This document shows positions 1 to 17,994 of a stretch of 20,608 nucleotides of DNA, in pieces (position 1 is the stretch's first letter; each line of letters starts with the position of its first letter). The notes under the pieces were generated by a model. The model worked only from the letters and a program-made list of their open reading frames with translations. It was not told the origin of the DNA and ran no database searches. The position numbers were made by a program, and so were the translations under genes. The stretch is from a virus. The DNA is taken from the IMG/VR virus record IMGVR_UViG_3300003324_000061, positions 4,053 through 24,660 of that record; one strand, written 5' to 3'.

Positions 1-31
1 GGTGCAGGTTCGAGTCCTGCCGTGGGCACCA
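1..31 (+). tRNA. tRNA gene, 3' part only (cut by window edge)
   Basis: The first 31 bases form the end of a canonical tRNA. A perfect 5-bp T stem (GCAGG/CCTGC) encloses the 7-base loop TTCGAGT. The 3' acceptor strand CGTGGGC, discriminator A and an encoded CCA follow. The missing 5' end should therefore begin GCCCACG. The anticodon lies outside the window, so the amino acid cannot be named. A tRNA at the edge suggests that a phage tRNA gene or cluster continues upstream. Confidence 0.85.
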
Positions 32-9301: not shown

Positions 9302-9443
9302 TTTGACTATTGACGAGAAGAAAGATTTGTACTACGATCTTGTAGAAGGAGACAGCATTCCTTGGGGCTTTAGCCAAGCAGAGCTGGACTATCTGAAAGA
9401 ACTTGTAGTGACTGATATTGACGCGGAGGAAAAGCGTAGCTAA
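9288..9443 (+). CDS. 51-residue acidic protein between polymerase and SSB
   Basis: An ATG at 9288 inside the last codons of the polymerase gene, after GGGAAG, opens a 51-codon frame ending in TAA. The TAA overlaps the SSB start (TAATG). The product (MSLTDLTIDEKKDLYYDL...) is acidic and helical, with no membrane span or known motif. Tight coupling at both ends suggests a role linked to polymerase or SSB dosage, but this is inference from position only. Confidence 0.65.
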   Translation: MSLTDLTIDEKKDLYYDLVEGDSIPWGFSQAELDYLKELVVTDIDAEEKRS

Positions 9444-9955
9444 TGGCGAATAAGACGTATTATTTTAGTGGTAAAGCTAAGTTCGGACCTAGGCTTATTA
9501 AGCCTGACTTAGAATACCGATGTTGGAATGTTGTCCTTTACTTAGATGATAAATCCTTAGAGCAGTTCAGGAAGCTCAAGGATGGGGCAGACGGTATCGA
9601 AGGGATCATGAATGAACTCAAGCAGGATGAAGATGGGTTCTACGCAACCTTCAAGAGACCTATGTCAAGAACTTACAATGGAAAGGAACAAGCATTTACT
9701 CCGCCTGTGGTCATTGGCGCAGACAACATGCCATGGCAAGATCACCGATTGATTGGTATCGGTTCTGATCTCACCGTTAAGTGTGAATGGTATTCGTTTA
9801 ACAAACCTTTCAAGAAGAATACGAAGGGTTCTGCCATTAGGCTGGTATCAGCTAGGGTTGACAACCTAGTTGAATATACTCCTCAGAAGGATTACTCTGA
9901 GGAAGAGGTCAAGATGGTTAAAGGATTGCCTGAACAACCTAAGCAGTACTTTTGA
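9443..9955 (+). CDS. Single-stranded DNA-binding protein, T7 gp2.5-like
   Basis: This 170-residue protein fits the phage gp2.5-type OB-fold ssDNA-binding family in length, placement after the polymerase and ending. It opens with beta-rich sequence (KTYYFSGKAKFGPRLI). Aromatic and basic residues suited to ssDNA contact are spread through RCWNVVLYLD and ATFKRPMSRTYNG. DLTVKCEWYSFNKPF and IRLVSARVDNLVEY are typical late strands. A short acidic segment (DYSEEE) precedes the C-terminus, which ends in Phe as in T7 gp2.5, where the terminal Phe and acidic tail contact polymerase and helicase. The tail here is less acidic than in T7. The start overlaps the previous stop (TAATG), with GGAGG (9425-9429) slightly far upstream. 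Confidence 0.85.
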   Translation: MANKTYYFSGKAKFGPRLIKPDLEYRCWNVVLYLDDKSLEQFRKLKDGADGIEGIMNELKQDEDGFYATFKRPMSRTYNGKEQAFTPPVVIGADNMPWQDHRLIGIGSDLTVKCEWYSFNKPFKKNTKGSAIRLVSARVDNLVEYTPQKDYSEEEVKMVKGLPEQPKQYF

Positions 9956-10355: not shown

Positions 10356-10391
10356 GCGGAGCTTTCCCTGCACAAAAGCTCCGCTTTATTT
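10356..10391 (+). terminator. Strong intrinsic terminator before the RNA locus
   Basis: GCGGAGCTTT (10356-10365) pairs perfectly with AAAGCTCCGC (10375-10384) around a 9-base loop. TTTATTT (10385-10391) follows. It should end transcripts from the 2454-10318 block and so insulate the RNA locus, which must have its own promoter or receive read-through. Confidence 0.93.
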
Positions 10392-10411
10392 CATTAGCGA
10401 GTACTAACCAC
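10389..10411 (+). promoter_or_regulatory. Candidate phage promoter, copy 2 of the shared motif
   Basis: TTTCATTAGCGAGTACTAA (10389-10407) repeats the pattern at 2421 (TTTCATTAG-N-GA-N-TA-N-TA). It sits on the T-run of the terminator and directly in front of the ORF-free structured tract. By analogy with SP6-type promoters, transcription would start near 10408-10412. Evidence is only the shared motif and shared context. Confidence 0.45.
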
Positions 10412-10476
10412 AGACGCTACAAGTAAGGTAGCTCAGCGCCCTAACTCGGCTGTTTACCGTAACGGGCAGTCCAGAC

Positions 10477-10558
10477 TTCCCAATGGCGGCGACGGTGTTC
10501 CCCACAGTGGGACCAATAGGCCGTAATCTGAGGTTCGATACCCTCACGTCGAAGGGAA
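10477..10558 (+). other. tRNA-like module in the RNA locus
   Basis: TTCCC (10477-10481) pairs with GGGAA (10554-10558), and inside it CGACG (10490-10494) pairs with CGTCG (10547-10551). A 5-bp hairpin with a 7-base loop (10497-10513) sits where an anticodon arm would be. TGAGG (10529-10533) and CCTCA (10542-10546), around a loop starting TTCGATA, mimic a T arm that stacks directly on the acceptor-like helix. There is no D arm and no CCA, and the T-like loop has 8 bases, so this is not an ordinary tRNA. Confidence 0.5.
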
Positions 10559-10714
10559 ATGGCTCGGGAGTTGTGTACCCGACTCGCATGAGCCTGCCTA
10601 GGATCGTTCCTACGTCCAAAGTAGGTAGGCTGTGGCTCAACCAGCCTGAAGACACGATAGCCGGACACTGGACTGGTGGACACCCGGCACTATGTTGGAA
10701 GGACTGAAGAAATA

Positions 10715-10822
10715 ATCCCGAACGGTGAGGGTCACTCCGACGGCGTCCTGACTACCCGCTTCGAGCAAGATACCCTCCAATGTGAAGGCAGGCAACCGTA
10801 CTCTTAGAGTATCATTCGGGAT
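10715..10822 (+). other. Multibranch RNA domain closed by an 8-bp stem
   Basis: ATCCCGAA (10715-10722) pairs with TTCGGGAT (10815-10822). Inside are CGGT/ACCG (10723/10795), GAGGGT/ACCCTC (10727/10772) and the hairpin TACTC-TTA-GAGTA (10799-10811). The nesting is consistent, with no clashes. Confidence 0.65.
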
Positions 10823-10856
10823 CAAATTCCCTAAGCCTGACAGATAGCTTAGGTCT

Positions 10857-10880
10857 CGCAGAGCCCTAACTGCGAAGGCT
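10857..10880 (+). other. H-type RNA pseudoknot
   Basis: The hairpin CGCAG (10857-10861)/CTGCG (10870-10874) has the loop AGCCCTAA. Its AGCC (10862-10865) is complementary to GGCT (10877-10880), two bases after the stem. This gives a compact H-type pseudoknot next to the 7-bp hairpin at 10830-10853. Confidence 0.55.
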
Positions 10881-10990
10881 AAAAACAAACTAGGCGAATA
10901 CAAGGTGAACCGCTCTATCCACCCAATCCGGTGACAGACGTGATCAGTCCTGGCATATCGCAGCACTTGCGGCTAAGTGCCCTACTGCGG

Positions 10991-11273
10991 GGAAAGTCCG
11001 ACTGCGACGGTGGCGCACTCCTTAGATGGAGGACAAATTGGGAGAGGAAGAAGCCGAACCAACCAGCTAACTGCTGGAGAGCAACCGAACCATACTCCGT
11101 TCCCCGAATGTGCAGAGGATTAAAGGATGGTATGTGATTCCATCGGCAAGCGGGAGAGAGGAGTAAGCTAGGTCCTAACTGACGCGACAATAGACAAGGG
11201 ACTTCTGTAGTACGGAAGACTCCCGGCTGTGTAACCTGTACGAGGTTCGATCCCTCTGAAAGATCCAAATAGG
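10991..11273 (+). other. RNase P-like sequence blocks within the RNA locus
   Basis: GGAAAGTCCG (10991-11000) is identical to the universal CR-I block of bacterial RNase P RNA. AGGATTAAAGGATGG (11116-11130), with the hairpin GATGG/CCATC, resembles the CR-III region GGGTGAAAGGG plus hairpin, and lies at about the E. coli distance from CR-I. GATCCAAATAGG (11262-11273) resembles GGCCAAATAGG after a short hairpin (GAGG/CCTC, 11242-11256). The order is correct. The P4 partner of the first block (expected AGTCGGCT) was not found, so a complete RNase P RNA is not supported. Confidence 0.35.
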
Positions 11274-11410
11274 TGGCGGGAAAGTTACATGGCTAAATGG
11301 TGGGTGCAACCACGCTGTCGTTAAGTTGCCGTTAGGGAAGCACGTGATGCAAAGACGTGCCGTCTGTAGGTGCCATCATCCTAAGGAGGATTGAAGCCTA
11401 CGAATAGACG

Positions 11411-11495
11411 GTTCTCGTTGGGGAGAGTATCCTAGAAATCCCCGTGGAGGTTCAAATCCTCATAGACTGGCGGAAATGGCATACGCGACGAGAAC
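11411..11495 (+). other. RNA domain closed by a perfect 8-bp helix
   Basis: GTTCTCGT (11411-11418) pairs with ACGAGAAC (11488-11495). It encloses GGGGA/TCCCC (11420/11439) and a T-arm-like hairpin GAGG-TTCAAAT-CCTC (11447-11461). It stacks directly on the helix CGTCT/AGACG (11361/11406) with its inner helices GTAGG/CCTAC and ATCCT/AGGAT. Confidence 0.65.
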
Positions 11496-11746
11496 CCGAC
11501 CCGTAATACCCGGATCAAGAAGGGCCTTCTGAAGGTATCCAGAAGTCCGGAGCAGCTCTGATGTAAAGCATGAAGCGCTTAATCCTTGAGGAATAAGGAT
11601 GAACTGAGTAAGGAGCGCATGAGTGTGAAGGGCCGCCCTCCCTTAGTAGCCTTTGAAAACCTCTTGATACATAAGAGGTGAGTATGCGAAGGGGACAGCT
11701 GCGTAAGACCATCACATCGGAGTACCTACCCTCAAGTTATGTAAAT

Positions 11747-11795
11747 GGAGGTGGAGCATGCTGAAACTACCTGGCCCACAGGTACAGCAACCTCC
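11747..11795 (+). other. Three-helix 3' terminal RNA domain
   Basis: GGAGGT (11747-11752) pairs with ACCTCC (11790-11795). GCTG/CAGC (11760/11785) and TACCTG/CAGGTA (11768/11779) nest inside. It is the last helix of the dense tract, so it may mark the RNA's 3' end; no U-tract follows. Confidence 0.6.
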
Positions 11796-11810
11796 TTAAC
11801 AAGAAGAGGG

Positions 11811-11847
11811 TGGGGGCAGAGACCTCAATAGAAAGAGGGAGCCCCCA
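11811..11847 (+). other. GC-rich leader hairpin before the 11871 gene
   Basis: TGGGGGC (11811-11817) pairs with GCCCCCA (11841-11847), and CCTC/GAGG (11823/11835) pairs inside. It ends 13 bases before the ribosome site of the 11871 gene (AGGAGAG). No U-run follows, so it is more likely a processing, stability or translation-control hairpin than a terminator. Confidence 0.5.
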
Positions 11848-11870
11848 CAAACCTCCAACAGGAGAGTCCC

Positions 11871-12089
11871 ATGAAGAACCACAGTCTTTTGCGGGAGTTC
11901 CTTGAGTTCAAGCAGCTTATGGCTGCAGACGATTTGTTCAAGAAGAAAGAAGAGAAGAAGGAAGAAAAGAAGCCTTGGCACGCTAGTATTAAGCCGAATA
12001 CATTCTTCAAGATTTACCTCATTCTGGTGATCCTGTATCCGGTAATTGGTAAGCTGTATACGATGCTTCTCCTCAAATTATGGCAGTGA
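11871..12089 (+). CDS. 72-residue membrane protein with charged linker
   Basis: AGGAGAG (11860-11866) precedes the ATG. The N-terminal 40 residues are helical and end in a run of alternating Lys/Glu (FKKKEEKKEEKKPW). A transmembrane helix follows (FFKIYLILVILYPVIGKLYTMLLL). The predicted topology is one or two membrane passes with a cytoplasmic charged coil. No family is recognised. The 3' end overlaps the start of the nuclease gene at 12080, coupling the two. It is the first gene after the RNA locus, so its mRNA may begin within that RNA. Confidence 0.7.
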   Translation: MKNHSLLREFLEFKQLMAADDLFKKKEEKKEEKKPWHASIKPNTFFKIYLILVILYPVIGKLYTMLLLKLWQ

Positions 12090-12973
12090 AATCAATATAC
12101 AATCTAATTCCAGACATCTACGATCTAGTTCAACACAAGAAGGGGTGGTTCGATGAAGCTTGTTCCGATGCCCTTCGAACTAATCTTGCTTCACGGCTTA
12201 CTGAGCATTTCAACAAAGAGAGGTACAATACCGGATCAGGTACTCTTCGTCTATCAGGCATGGGACCGAAGTGTCCAAAGGCGCTTTGGTACAGCGTGCA
12301 CCATCCAGACTTGGCGGAACCTCTACCTCCGTGGGCTGAGGTTAAGTTCGCGTATGGCCACGTACTGGAAGGACTAGTCATCACATTTGCTAAAGCAGCA
12401 GGACATGAAGTCGTAGGAGAGCAAGATGAACTTGTCCTCGATGGCATCACAGGTCACCGTGACTGCATCATTGATGGGTGTATTGTTGATGTCAAGTCTG
12501 CTAGCAGCATTGCCTTTGGCAAGTTCAAGAGTGGGGCTATTGAACAAAATGATAGTTTTGGTTATCTGGATCAACTTGACGGGTATGTGGTCGCGAGCCG
12601 TGGAGATGCTCGTCTTCGGGTACAAGACCGAGGGTATCTATTGGCAGTTGATAAAACACTGGGCCATATGACCCTTCATGAACATCAGGTGACATATGAA
12701 CGAGAGAGAACTCTCAGAGATCGCATCTCATATTATAAAACAATTGTCGGACGAAACACTCCTCCAAGCTGTGAATGCGGAACTAAGGCAGAGGGGGCTT
12801 CGGGAAATATCAAGCTTGACACTGTTGCCTCCTACTCCCCCTTCAAGCACTGTTGCTTCCCCAACCTTAGAACATTTATCTACCAATCAGGACCCGTCTA
12901 CCTCACCAAAGTAGTACGTAAGCCTGATGTTAAAGAGGTTGACAAGCACGGTAAAACCGTGTATACTTACTAG
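12080..12973 (+). CDS. Cas4/RecB-like PD-(D/E)XK exonuclease with probable Fe-S cluster cysteines
   Basis: This 297-residue protein has the layout of Cas4-type 5'-3' nucleases used by many phages for end processing or recombination. GPKCPKALWYSVHH (about residues 62-75) supplies the first Cys and the conserved aromatic segment. YGHVLEGLVITFAKAAGHEV is the helix with the nuclease Glu. GITGHRDCIIDGCIVDVKSAS (about 122-142) holds the catalytic D ... D-x-K core. The late region has CECG (about 232) and CCF (about 258), giving Cys spacing suited to a 4Fe-4S site. It may fill the role of T7 gp6 exonuclease, which is not seen here. The start overlaps the previous gene by 10 bases. Confidence 0.8.
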   Translation: MAVKSIYNLIPDIYDLVQHKKGWFDEACSDALRTNLASRLTEHFNKERYNTGSGTLRLSGMGPKCPKALWYSVHHPDLAEPLPPWAEVKFAYGHVLEGLVITFAKAAGHEVVGEQDELVLDGITGHRDCIIDGCIVDVKSASSIAFGKFKSGAIEQNDSFGYLDQLDGYVVASRGDARLRVQDRGYLLAVDKTLGHMTLHEHQVTYERERTLRDRISYYKTIVGRNTPPSCECGTKAEGASGNIKLDTVASYSPFKHCCFPNLRTFIYQSGPVYLTKVVRKPDVKEVDKHGKTVYTY

Positions 12974-15322: not shown

Positions 15323-15997
15323 TTACAGGTTCAAATCCTTGTACGGGATTACTGTAGCTGTGAACTCAAAGGTAGGATTACCTATCCACCTAGGATCAGA
15401 CTTACAGATGACCATGAATTCTTTATGTCCCTTGGTAGACCTACCCACAAGACAACCGGCAGAGGATGTGCCTAAGTCATCCTTAGAAAGGTCATAGCCC
15501 CAATGGTGATGAACTCCGAACATCCCTGTATCCTCTTTATCACCTGTTCTTACGAAGTCCTTATTGAGATCACGATAGACTGTGATCGGACTAGATTGGA
15601 TAAGGGCTTCATAGTTATGGTATATACCGGTGACCCAAGCCTTGTATTGTCCAAACTTGATTCGGGCAGCACCTTTAGGGTTCATTGGGTTCAAGGTCCA
15701 GTATCTCCCTGGTTCCGTCGTCGCATCCCAAATTCCCCTGATGACAGGTCTTTTATCTTCATAACTGAAGACAAGCCTGACATCATTGAATTTATTGGGC
15801 GCATTATCGTTGGGTGTGCAATCGGTATTCATCCCTTCAATGTACCAGATATTAACCTCACCAGGATTCTTAAAAAGCAGGTATCCCTTGATTTTAGATA
15901 CCCTCTCAATCGCCTTTAGAAGGTCACTGGTGCGTTTATTTAGGGGGGCCGGTAGGGTAGTACCGGGGGTGTTTTGCTCTTCGTAAGCCTTAGCCAT
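15323..15997 (-). CDS. L,D-transpeptidase (YkuD)-like cell-wall protein
   Basis: This 224-residue protein closes the virion-gene arm. Residues 163-182 carry a His cluster (GVHHHWGYDL) followed by GTSSAGCLVG, matching the YkuD-type catalytic pattern His ... Ser-x-Gly-Cys with nucleophile Cys 182. Related phage proteins with SAGC motifs are cell-wall acting enzymes, either endolysins or virion-associated peptidoglycan hydrolases. The preceding region is strand-rich (RYWTLNPMNPKGAARIKFGQY, KAWVTGIYHNY). There is no signal peptide or membrane span. Its start overlaps the previous gene's stop (TAATG), so it is made with the internal virion proteins. A lytic or entry role is therefore likely, but substrate and direction (cutting or joining) are unknown. 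Confidence 0.75.
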   Translation of the reverse strand: MAKAYEEQNTPGTTLPAPLNKRTSDLLKAIERVSKIKGYLLFKNPGEVNIWYIEGMNTDCTPNDNAPNKFNDVRLVFSYEDKRPVIRGIWDATTEPGRYWTLNPMNPKGAARIKFGQYKAWVTGIYHNYEALIQSSPITVYRDLNKDFVRTGDKEDTGMFGVHHHWGYDLSKDDLGTSSAGCLVGRSTKGHKEFMVICKSDPRWIGNPTFEFTATVIPYKDLNL

Positions 15998-17994
15998 TAT
16001 TCATCATCCAAACTAATGTTAACAGGAATGCCTTTACCCTTTTTATTAGGGACTACTTTTCTACCTATAGCAGCAGCTAAGTGGTATGGATCAGCGACAA
16101 ATGCTAAAGCCTGCAATAAGCTATTGTTATCGTGTTCTGTAAACTTGCCGCCGGTATTGAAGTCATAAGTATCCTCTACAGTTATCTTACCGTTTTTGAT
16201 TGAATACTTGAAACCGCCAAGAATATCTGTAGTTAAGGTAGGATTGTTCCATTGATCTTTATAAGATCGCGAGGCGGTATAATCTTGATAATCCTTATAA
16301 TCTACTTTGCCACTAGACTTACCACTACGTTCTGCTTTGAAACGAACCAACTCTTTGAGCTGACGCAACTCATCTGAACTTAAATCCTTTTCAGTAATAG
16401 GTTCTGTGCGGCCACGTTGAACGATGTCGTTGTATAAACGAACTCTAGTACTTGCAAGTCCAGTTTTCTCATAGGTATCTAAAACCTTCAAAAACGTTTT
16501 CTCTACAGAAGTTAATGAAGAATTATTAGATTCAGCAGCTTTACTATCAGTTGGCGCCGCTGCTAGGCCTGCTCCAATTGCAGCAACAGCTCCTGCACCT
16601 TCAGGCCCAGGACCTTCCATGAACTTGAGCTTAGGCAGGCTCGGTACTCCCCTCTGTTGAGTCTGAGCCTGTTTAACTTCTTCAGCAGAGCCTCCGCGTC
16701 TACCTGTAGGATTAGGAGAACCTCTGCCAGATGAACCGAAGTATCTAGCTACGAGTCCTGCAACGGCATCTCTAGTAATGCCATGTTCCTCCGCAATCTG
16801 AGCATAGGTTTTATCATTATCTAAACCTGTTTTAATTGCATTGACTAATTCAGGGTCAACACCTTCTTGCCTTGATGGACGTGTTTCAATCCCTGCTTCC
16901 TTGAGAGCCCTAAGGACTGGTTTCTGAGAAATCTTAAGCTCTTTAGCAATATCTGTAGCACTCATTTCTTGGTTGACATACATATCGCGCAGTCTATCGA
17001 AATCTATCGCAATCTTCTGTCTACCGCCTTTAAGGACAGAAGGCGTCTTAGCCCCGCCTGTCGGTAAGGTGTTAATCCCTTCTAGGAGGTCATAGACCAT
17101 TCCTTGCCAAACGAACTTACCTTCCTTATCCACACCCATAGGTGGGTTACGCATAGACTCTAGGAAGCCTACAGTCTTGTCGTACCAATTCTTATGAACA
17201 GAGACAGTCTCAGGATTTGGTTCACTCTTTAGGTACTTCATCATTTCATCAAATGATGCTCTTTGCTCGGGAGTATAGGCAGTGTCATTGAACTCTTGTG
17301 GCCATTGCTTGAAAGCATAGCCTCTGAAGTAAGCAGGAAGCCCAGTAGCCGTCTTCCAATCTTCGAAAGGACGGGTCTCTCCTTCGTTCTTTTGTGCCCA
17401 TTCATACTGAGACTTAAGACGATCATTCTGTTCTGGAGTTAATGATTTCTGAAAATCTGAGTAGTACTTTTTAATTACAGGGTCTGTCCCAACCATATGG
17501 TGGGAAACAATATCACCTAAGACATCTAGAGATGTGGCCTTATTTCCATAGAGTTCTACTCCAGGTTTGTTTATGTCAAACTCTTTAGGACGAGGACGAT
17601 CTGTAGTACCCGGTTCTCCGGCAGGCCAGAACTCAAGCATGTTTGATCCGCTGGCTGGACTTTGTTTAGAAGTTAAACCTAAACCTTTGAGCCTAGGATA
17701 TTCTTCTAGAGTTTGGTCGAAAACAGATTGTTGAGTGTTAGAAGTAGGACCTGTAATACTGGCAGTCTTCACCTGGACAGGAGTAGTCGCAAATAGACTA
17801 TCTCCTTTACCAGTTCCTACTATTCCTGTTTCTGCATAGAATGAAGGATGGTAATTAGATCCTGATGCATCCATAGCGCCGGAAGAGAAAGCATCTTGGA
17901 CATCTTTAAATGCTTGGTCTACATAGACATTCGGAGCCACTAACATATCGTAGTGAGTCTCGAAGTAATCACCATCTGAAGTACCAATAGGCAT
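15997..17994 (-). CDS. Probable internal virion protein with tandem helix-turn-helix repeats
   Basis: This 665-residue protein is placed in the virion block by its position between the 780-residue protein and the cell-wall enzyme, and by its size. The N-terminal 300 residues are mixed, with a helical stretch (EQNDRLKSQYEWAQKNEGE) and LPAYFRGYAFKQWPQEF. Residues about 330-420 hold two helix-turn-helix units: MSATDIAKELKISQKPVLRALKEAG and TYAQIAEEHGITRDAVAGLVARY. A Gly/Pro/Ser-rich linker (420-455) and an Ala-rich segment (AGAVAAIGAGLAAAP, possible membrane-active helix) follow. The C-terminus has VEDTYDFNTGG, a motif I recall from other phage virion proteins. DNA-binding units inside a virion protein are unusual. 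Start and stop overlap the neighbours as TAATG. Confidence 0.75.
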   Translation of the reverse strand: MPIGTSDGDYFETHYDMLVAPNVYVDQAFKDVQDAFSSGAMDASGSNYHPSFYAETGIVGTGKGDSLFATTPVQVKTASITGPTSNTQQSVFDQTLEEYPRLKGLGLTSKQSPASGSNMLEFWPAGEPGTTDRPRPKEFDINKPGVELYGNKATSLDVLGDIVSHHMVGTDPVIKKYYSDFQKSLTPEQNDRLKSQYEWAQKNEGETRPFEDWKTATGLPAYFRGYAFKQWPQEFNDTAYTPEQRASFDEMMKYLKSEPNPETVSVHKNWYDKTVGFLESMRNPPMGVDKEGKFVWQGMVYDLLEGINTLPTGGAKTPSVLKGGRQKIAIDFDRLRDMYVNQEMSATDIAKELKISQKPVLRALKEAGIETRPSRQEGVDPELVNAIKTGLDNDKTYAQIAEEHGITRDAVAGLVARYFGSSGRGSPNPTGRRGGSAEEVKQAQTQQRGVPSLPKLKFMEGPGPEGAGAVAAIGAGLAAAPTDSKAAESNNSSLTSVEKTFLKVLDTYEKTGLASTRVRLYNDIVQRGRTEPITEKDLSSDELRQLKELVRFKAERSGKSSGKVDYKDYQDYTASRSYKDQWNNPTLTTDILGGFKYSIKNGKITVEDTYDFNTGGKFTEHDNNSLLQALAFVADPYHLAAAIGRKVVPNKKGKGIPVNISLDDE

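Follow-up and report, generated by a model that had tools for sequence, protein, structure and literature searches.

By comparing related phage loci, we confirm that the region from 10.4 to 11.8 kb of the window (the 20,608-nucleotide stretch of viral DNA analyzed here) is a genuine structured RNA locus. We propose, with a probability of about 0.5, that it represents a new class of giant, ribosome-capturing phage RNA. The locus occupies a conserved genomic position, is present in some phages and absent from others, and combines a covarying secondary structure and a circularly permuted tRNA-like domain with a short reading frame at its 3′ end. A more specific reading, which we put forward tentatively, is that of a hitherto unknown kind of viral RNA machine that takes hold of bacterial ribosomes and retains them. 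This kilobase RNA would carry an uncharged, inside-out tRNA mimic and a stall site at a Pro-Pro-stop, would possibly be attached to the membrane via the neighboring protein, and would enable lytic phages to commandeer or disable translation.

Distribution and structure of the RNA locus

The virus record from which the window derives is 50.8 kb long and includes virion genes of the podovirus type. Its plus strand encodes a primase-helicase, a DNA polymerase, and a Cas4-like exonuclease, and the RNA tract lies in a slot bordered by small genes following the polymerase on the left and by a small gene preceding the exonuclease on the right. A 170-amino acid protein (9443–9955, + strand) and the Cas4-like exonuclease (12080–12973, + strand) serve as left- and right-hand syntenic anchors. 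We gathered relatives by scanning IMG/VR with the exonuclease and the polymerase, which returned more than 100 related loci; removal of duplicates left 89 tracts, with ∼85 independent syntenic contigs. A long non-coding tract fills the same slot in 83/83 independent phage contigs that are legible to the 3′ end of the tract. The carriers form a clade of uncultured soil phages, in which the RNA is roughly 1.1–3.5 kb long and the interval from the 170-amino acid protein to the exonuclease measures 1.5–4.2 kb in nearly all related loci. The same interval is just 63–192 nt in four outgroup loci (L080–L083), and only 54 nt separate the corresponding genes in the cultured relative Roseobacter phage CRP-13; the RNA locus is absent from all of these genomes and was therefore gained or lost as a unit. 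By polymerase, the nearest cultured relatives are phages of marine Rhodobacteraceae. A DNA search of the window tract against 50,697 phage records (cultured phages) gave no match, the polymerase profile found nothing in bacterial genomes, and a literature search found no description of such an RNA.

Tract length and sequence differ strongly from subgroup to subgroup, and iterated nhmmer joins 38/89 tracts by sequence. All matches in a pairwise BLAST comparison of a first set of 61 tracts (464/464) are on the plus strand. Some relatives carry an extra gene with a GDTHFFHTNMLKF motif, metallophosphoesterase-like by eye, which has the RNA cassette on one side and the exonuclease on the other (L002 5484–6020 and L004 2118–2663). 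Elsewhere in the window, a 665-amino acid protein (15997–17994, − strand) contains an HNH-endonuclease/HTH-like segment and has no overall family match.

The RNA body extends from 10401 to 11757 on the plus strand, with an approximate 5′ end. It contains T-arm-like element 1 (GGTTCGATACCCT, 10532–10544), the conserved core motif AATCCGGTGACAGACGTGATCAGTCC (10925–10950), and T-arm element 2 (GAGGTTCGATCCCTC, 11242–11256), all on the plus strand; the core motif GGTGACAGACGTGATCAG recurs within one large group of tracts. In six subgroups of 59–80% identity, RNAalifold returns far lower energies and 2–5 times more covarying pairs (pairs with two-sided changes) than in column-shuffled alignments (103 versus 27–47, 85 versus 34–50, 50 versus 9–16, 96 versus 32–39, 62 versus 24–38, and 96 versus 50–60, real versus shuffled), and a longer-tract alignment yields 151 versus 29–41. 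The whole-group alignment of the window's own subgroup (43–48% identity) gives a modest signal (alifold −190 versus −147 to −162), and the covariation case thus rests on the better-aligned subgroups and on the permuted domain described below. Whole-RNA alignment across subgroups is unreliable, and hence we do not claim a single consensus structure.

The body has no conserved reading frame: of 683 frames of at least 50 codons in the ∼1.1-kb regions upstream of the 3′ mini-ORF, each has relatives in 6 other tracts at most, and the majority of those with relatives in other tracts lie on the minus strand. An earlier note, made from the window sequence by itself, had described an ornate RNA locus without a credible coding frame at this position. 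The locus is borne out, and spread more widely than had been proposed, by the syntenic tracts, the excess of covarying pairs, and strand-specific T-arms; the statement on coding holds for the body and fails for the last 42 bases (11758–11799), which form the mini-ORF. Homologous tracts with compensatory changes, which the note had suggested looking for, were found, the changes exceeding shuffled controls in six subgroups, and a frame conserved across tracts, which it had regarded as evidence against an RNA, is missing from the body. Its count of ∼20 perfect helices in one sequence was weak evidence, as folding energies of single sequences are uninformative (z = −2.3 for the tract versus −3.9 for a polymerase-gene segment of equal length); the structure is confirmed by comparison and not by folding energy.

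That unremarkable folding energy, and the resemblance of the T-arms to tRNA remnants, could be taken to mean that the tract is no RNA at all, and that a tRNA array in decay, a protein-coding region that has diverged, or helices accumulated by chance account for it. Such a reading is barely credible, and already contradicted by the comparative data, which reveal compensatory changes in six subgroups, a permuted topology with covarying stems, a conserved 3′ mini-ORF, and no conserved frame in the body.

Upstream of the body lies a perfect 10-bp, GC-rich hairpin with a T-rich tail that resembles an intrinsic terminator (10356–10384, + strand, z = −4.0). The strong terminator proposed earlier is thus present in the window but does not qualify as a general boundary, since a counterpart is found in only a minority of relatives; a transcript defined by a terminator therefore finds no support among them. 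An accompanying promoter-like motif was not supported, and we found no promoter for the RNA tract. No terminator was found between the mini-ORF and the next gene either, and the RNA may thus be part of a longer operon transcript.

The circularly permuted tRNA-Leu-like domain

Across 202 kb of tract sequence, we counted 135 copies of the T-arm motif GGTTCRA-NN(N)-CC on the sense strand and 0 on the antisense strand; 644 kb of flanking DNA contained 8. Many of the sense-strand copies belong to one domain, in which the T-arm is followed by a hairpin with its stem directly adjoining the T-stem, in the manner of a tRNA acceptor, and then by TGGCGNAANNGGNANACGC, a tRNA-Leu-type D-arm. The anticodon stem closes outside the domain, with one strand before the T-arm and the other after the D-arm. 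The full order is anticodon-stem 3′ strand, variable region, T-arm, closed acceptor, D-arm, and anticodon-stem 5′ strand, which is that of a circularly permuted tRNA-like fold. In relatives, the acceptor stem is usually closed by a short loop.

In the window, the domain spans 11410–11496 (+ strand), and the permuted tRNA shape is its minimum-energy structure. The anticodon-stem 3′ strand GGTTCTCGTTG (11410–11420) comes first and pairs with the 5′ strand CGACGAGAACC (11486–11496), which comes last; enclosed between them are a long, class II-like variable arm GGGG..GTATCCTAGAAA..CCCC (11420–11443), T-arm element 3 (GGAGGTTCAAATCCTCA, 11446–11462), a 5-nt linker (11463–11467), and the tRNA-Leu-type D-arm TGGCGGAAATGGCATACGC (11468–11486). 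The linker takes the place of the closed acceptor stem of most relatives, which in this copy has been lost and reduced to five bases. Among the tRNA-like modules previously noted in the tract, one hence amounts to an entire tRNA-like fold in permuted order, supported by compensatory changes. The GTATCCTAGAAA segment is near-invariant in the variable arm of the window's subgroup (window 11424–11438; L144, L131, L122, and L102).

With a strict descriptor, the permuted domain was matched 26 times, in 23 loci, and neither the minus strand nor the flanks gave a match. A covariance model (E < 1e-5) located the domain in 32 loci, 17 of them outside the model-building set and all inside tracts; it is detected confidently in only part of the loci and may be diverged or absent elsewhere. 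Covariation in the domain amounts to 0.476 versus 0.134 in shuffled alignments, with 0/500 shuffles reaching 0.476. Its anticodon stems are complementary in many different sequences (CGACGAGAACC/GGTTCTCGTTG in the window, TGTCAGTG/CACTGACA in L118, GTGAGTTG/CAACTCAC in L125, CGGCTAGG/CCTAGCTG in L144, and ATGGGTT/AGCCCAT in L104), its D-stem changes pairwise from GCG/CGC to GTG/CAC, and T-stem pairs likewise change on both sides.

Descent of the permuted domain from a tRNA-Leu is plausible because the phage carries an ordinary tRNA-Leu(UAA) gene. The window starts inside this gene (window 1–31; G000:C1:3973–4083), which has its variable arm masked as N and was therefore missed by ARAGORN; its D-arm resembles the D-arms of the permuted domains. 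Large phages also carry permuted tRNA-like elements, within their tRNA clusters or close by (L183, L199, L201, L208, L212, L245, L197, and L181; some contigs are 74–354 kb long), as seen in a pattern scan that mostly caught neighboring ordinary tRNA genes. Several of these elements have a closed acceptor; they match nothing in Rfam besides tRNA and lack the Pro-Pro-stop mini-ORF of the main family, L181 carrying just a single short VEPGPP frame.

Conceivably, the domain is a tRNA decoy or sponge that ties up an enzyme of the host or a tRNA nuclease directed against phages, with the mini-ORF being secondary. T-arms that are numerous and strand-specific, a closed acceptor that cannot be charged, a real tRNA-Leu(UAA) encoded just left of the window, and the permuted elements in large-phage tRNA clusters would agree with this role, for which, however, ∼80 nt and not 1.4 kb would suffice. 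As the mini-ORF is also more universal than the permuted domain, we consider a decoy very improbable.

The Pro-Pro-stop mini-ORF and a model for ribosome capture

At the 3′ end of the RNA, the Shine-Dalgarno sequence GGAGG (11747–11751, + strand) leads a mini-ORF of 13 codons (11758–11799, + strand), which encodes MLKLPGPQVQQPP and ends in Pro-Pro-UAA. A Shine-Dalgarno-led mini-ORF ending in Pro-Pro-stop is present in 83/83 tracts legible to the 3′ end, the 6 tracts without it being two outgroup contigs and four contigs that apparently stop short; it is also carried by L238, a locus found only via the permuted-tRNA pattern. The mini-ORFs are 11–33 codons long and end in UAA in 81/83 cases, and Gln or Arg precedes Pro-Pro in 65/83, the peptide being otherwise unconserved across groups. 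G follows the UAA in 39/83 mini-ORFs. Shine-Dalgarno-led short ORFs ending in Pro-Pro number 84/531 on the plus strand of the tracts, 2/266 on the minus strand, and 2/736 in flanks, and 1/430 flanking control ORFs of at least 100 amino acids ends in this way.

Codons of the penultimate proline (CCT 37, CCA 31, CCG 18, and CCC 13%) follow the phages' own usage (39, 32, 17, and 13% in the exonuclease genes), which indicates that the amino acid is selected at this position. The last proline codon is CCU in 71/83 and never CCG, a bias that is an added constraint beyond an amino-acid-only account. We rejected two nucleotide-level explanations, namely that CCTCCTTAA at the RNA 3′ end is an anti-Shine-Dalgarno copy of the 16 S tail and that the Pro-Pro codons mask the Shine-Dalgarno sequence of the next gene, because the third base of the penultimate proline codon varies freely and Pro-Pro is invariant. 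A C-terminal Pro-Pro before the stop codon and a Shine-Dalgarno-led start are the sequence features of a stop-codon arrest ORF. Pro-Pro-stop is listed among the strongest termination-stalling, SsrA-tagging ends in a passage of PMC7246954 that cites Hayes 2002, and the same source gives an odds ratio of 0.44 for its depletion in bacterial genomes. Stalling at Pro-Pro-stop differs between bacteria.

A GC-rich hairpin with a perfect 8-bp stem and no U-run starts 10 nt past the stop codon (11810–11848, + strand, z = −3.8). It is followed by the gene of a 72-amino acid protein (11871–12089, + strand) with a KKKEEKKEEKK stretch and a hydrophobic C-terminal segment. The same type of protein follows the mini-ORF in most relatives, starting at a median of 67 nt downstream; these proteins, mostly 70–118 amino acids long, usually combine a stretch rich in lysine and glutamate with a hydrophobic C-terminal segment, and 60/83 are above and 23/83 below our hydrophobicity cut-off. 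No family match above threshold was found for the small protein, which is plausibly a membrane-anchored partner of the RNA.

This arrangement would also suit a giant regulatory leader, in which the mini-ORF is a leader peptide acting in a tnaC-type manner and the upstream RNA a sensor, and in which a stall at Pro-Pro-UAA refolds the downstream hairpin region and thereby acts as an on/off switch for the next gene (and the exonuclease). The short distance to the next gene and the 60 nt past the stop codon, which are more stable than random tract segments (−16.7 versus −12.5 kcal/mol), speak for this reading, and the lack of a terminator in front of the next gene makes it a serious rival. We nevertheless judge it unlikely: the Pro-Pro codons vary, and the next Shine-Dalgarno sequence thus cannot be masked consistently, and the covarying structure and the tRNA-like domain lie upstream of the mini-ORF and not around it. 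The RNA, at 1.1–3.5 kb, also far exceeds any leader known to us.

We favor ribosome capture by the RNA. Since the only invariant product is a Pro-Pro-stop end with a Shine-Dalgarno sequence for loading, the RNA would, most simply, park a ribosome on itself. The locus would be transcribed into an RNA that folds into many covarying helices, including the permuted tRNA-Leu-like domain, which may present a tRNA-shaped elbow without a free acceptor end for charging. A ribosome would load at the 3′-end Shine-Dalgarno sequence, translate 11–33 codons, and arrive at Pro-Pro-UAA, where peptide release is predicted to be slow, often with a GC-rich hairpin just downstream, and the RNA would thereby become tethered to the stalled ribosome. 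The purpose is probably to redirect or disable host translation, or to occupy rescue factors, during lytic growth. As for the giant body, it could sequester the ribosome, bring it to the membrane or to phage RNA, or occupy rescue factors; alternatively, the ribosome may protect the RNA's own 3′ end. Known RNAs of such size are very few, and no role has been settled for GOLLD, ROOL, or OLE; here, the tRNA mimic and the invariant stall peptide provide two sequence clues to mechanism, and dozens of diverged homologues make structure and function directly testable. If ribosome capture is true, the locus would represent RNA-based viral control of host translation and would offer a compact setting for studying why giant RNAs are retained by phages.

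Comparison with known RNAs

Rfam searches of the window tract returned no gathering-score match, and only chance matches at lax thresholds; ARAGORN found no tRNA in the tract. We rejected membership in GOLLD, ROOL, or OLE (no match to the family covariance models), RNase P RNA (no covariance-model match even at E ≤ 10), tmRNA (ARAGORN and Rfam are negative, the acceptor is closed or lost, and the ORF has its own Shine-Dalgarno sequence and start codon), and canonical tRNA (no ARAGORN tRNA, and an element order permuted versus the cloverleaf). By the tests run, the RNA belongs to none of these families. The earlier note is partly supported in its interpretation: no described family is matched, as it had stated, and neither its RNase P-like blocks nor the suggested kinship with GOLLD and ROOL found a counterpart in these searches.

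Size, helix density, and phage location are nonetheless in the style of GOLLD and ROOL, which form RNA-only cages and, in the case of GOLLD, bind ribosomes in pull-downs (PMC12286853). The new RNA could accordingly be architectural, forming a multimeric particle or cage in which the tRNA-like elbow would be a module for folding and the stalled ribosome would do no more than protect or delimit the 3′ end. We think this improbable, given the missing Rfam match to either family, the strong variation in length and sequence among subgroups, and the invariant Pro-Pro-stop end, which a cage by itself leaves unexplained. GOLLD and ROOL occur near tRNA islands, and tRNAs are sometimes found inside the GOLLD linker (PMC12286853). 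Like these RNAs, ours is hundreds of nucleotides long, highly structured, phage-encoded, and linked to tRNA biology; unlike them, it is longer, is not located beside a tRNA island, contains a permuted rather than an ordinary tRNA, and has an invariant Pro-Pro-stop mini-ORF and a different kind of neighbor gene.

The most common gene immediately downstream of OLE encodes a membrane protein with a positive-charge cluster (PMC12265935). OLE and OapA thus resemble the phage locus in pairing a large ornate RNA with a putative membrane-protein neighbor. OLE, however, is bacterial and ∼600 nt long, and OapA has four predicted transmembrane helices, whereas the neighbor of the new RNA has one hydrophobic C-terminal segment after a Lys-rich stretch. 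To our knowledge, OLE has no such mini-ORF.

A tRNA-like domain is combined with a short ORF in tmRNA as well, including its permuted two-piece forms. The acceptor of the new RNA is usually closed or lost, precluding charging, and its ORF, positioned downstream of the domain, has a Shine-Dalgarno sequence and a start codon to itself. In permuted tRNA genes of algae and archaea, the 3′ half precedes the 5′ half, as in our domain, and the products become working tRNAs; the anticodon stem of the phage domain instead leads into a kilobase-long RNA, with an acceptor that is either closed or lost. Finally, stop-codon arrest leaders of the TnaC type are short Shine-Dalgarno-led ORFs with a C-terminal proline that stalls at termination. 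The phage mini-ORF shares this layout, with a proline at the stop codon and a predicted stall, but its peptide is unconserved beyond Pro-Pro and is attached to a giant structured RNA.
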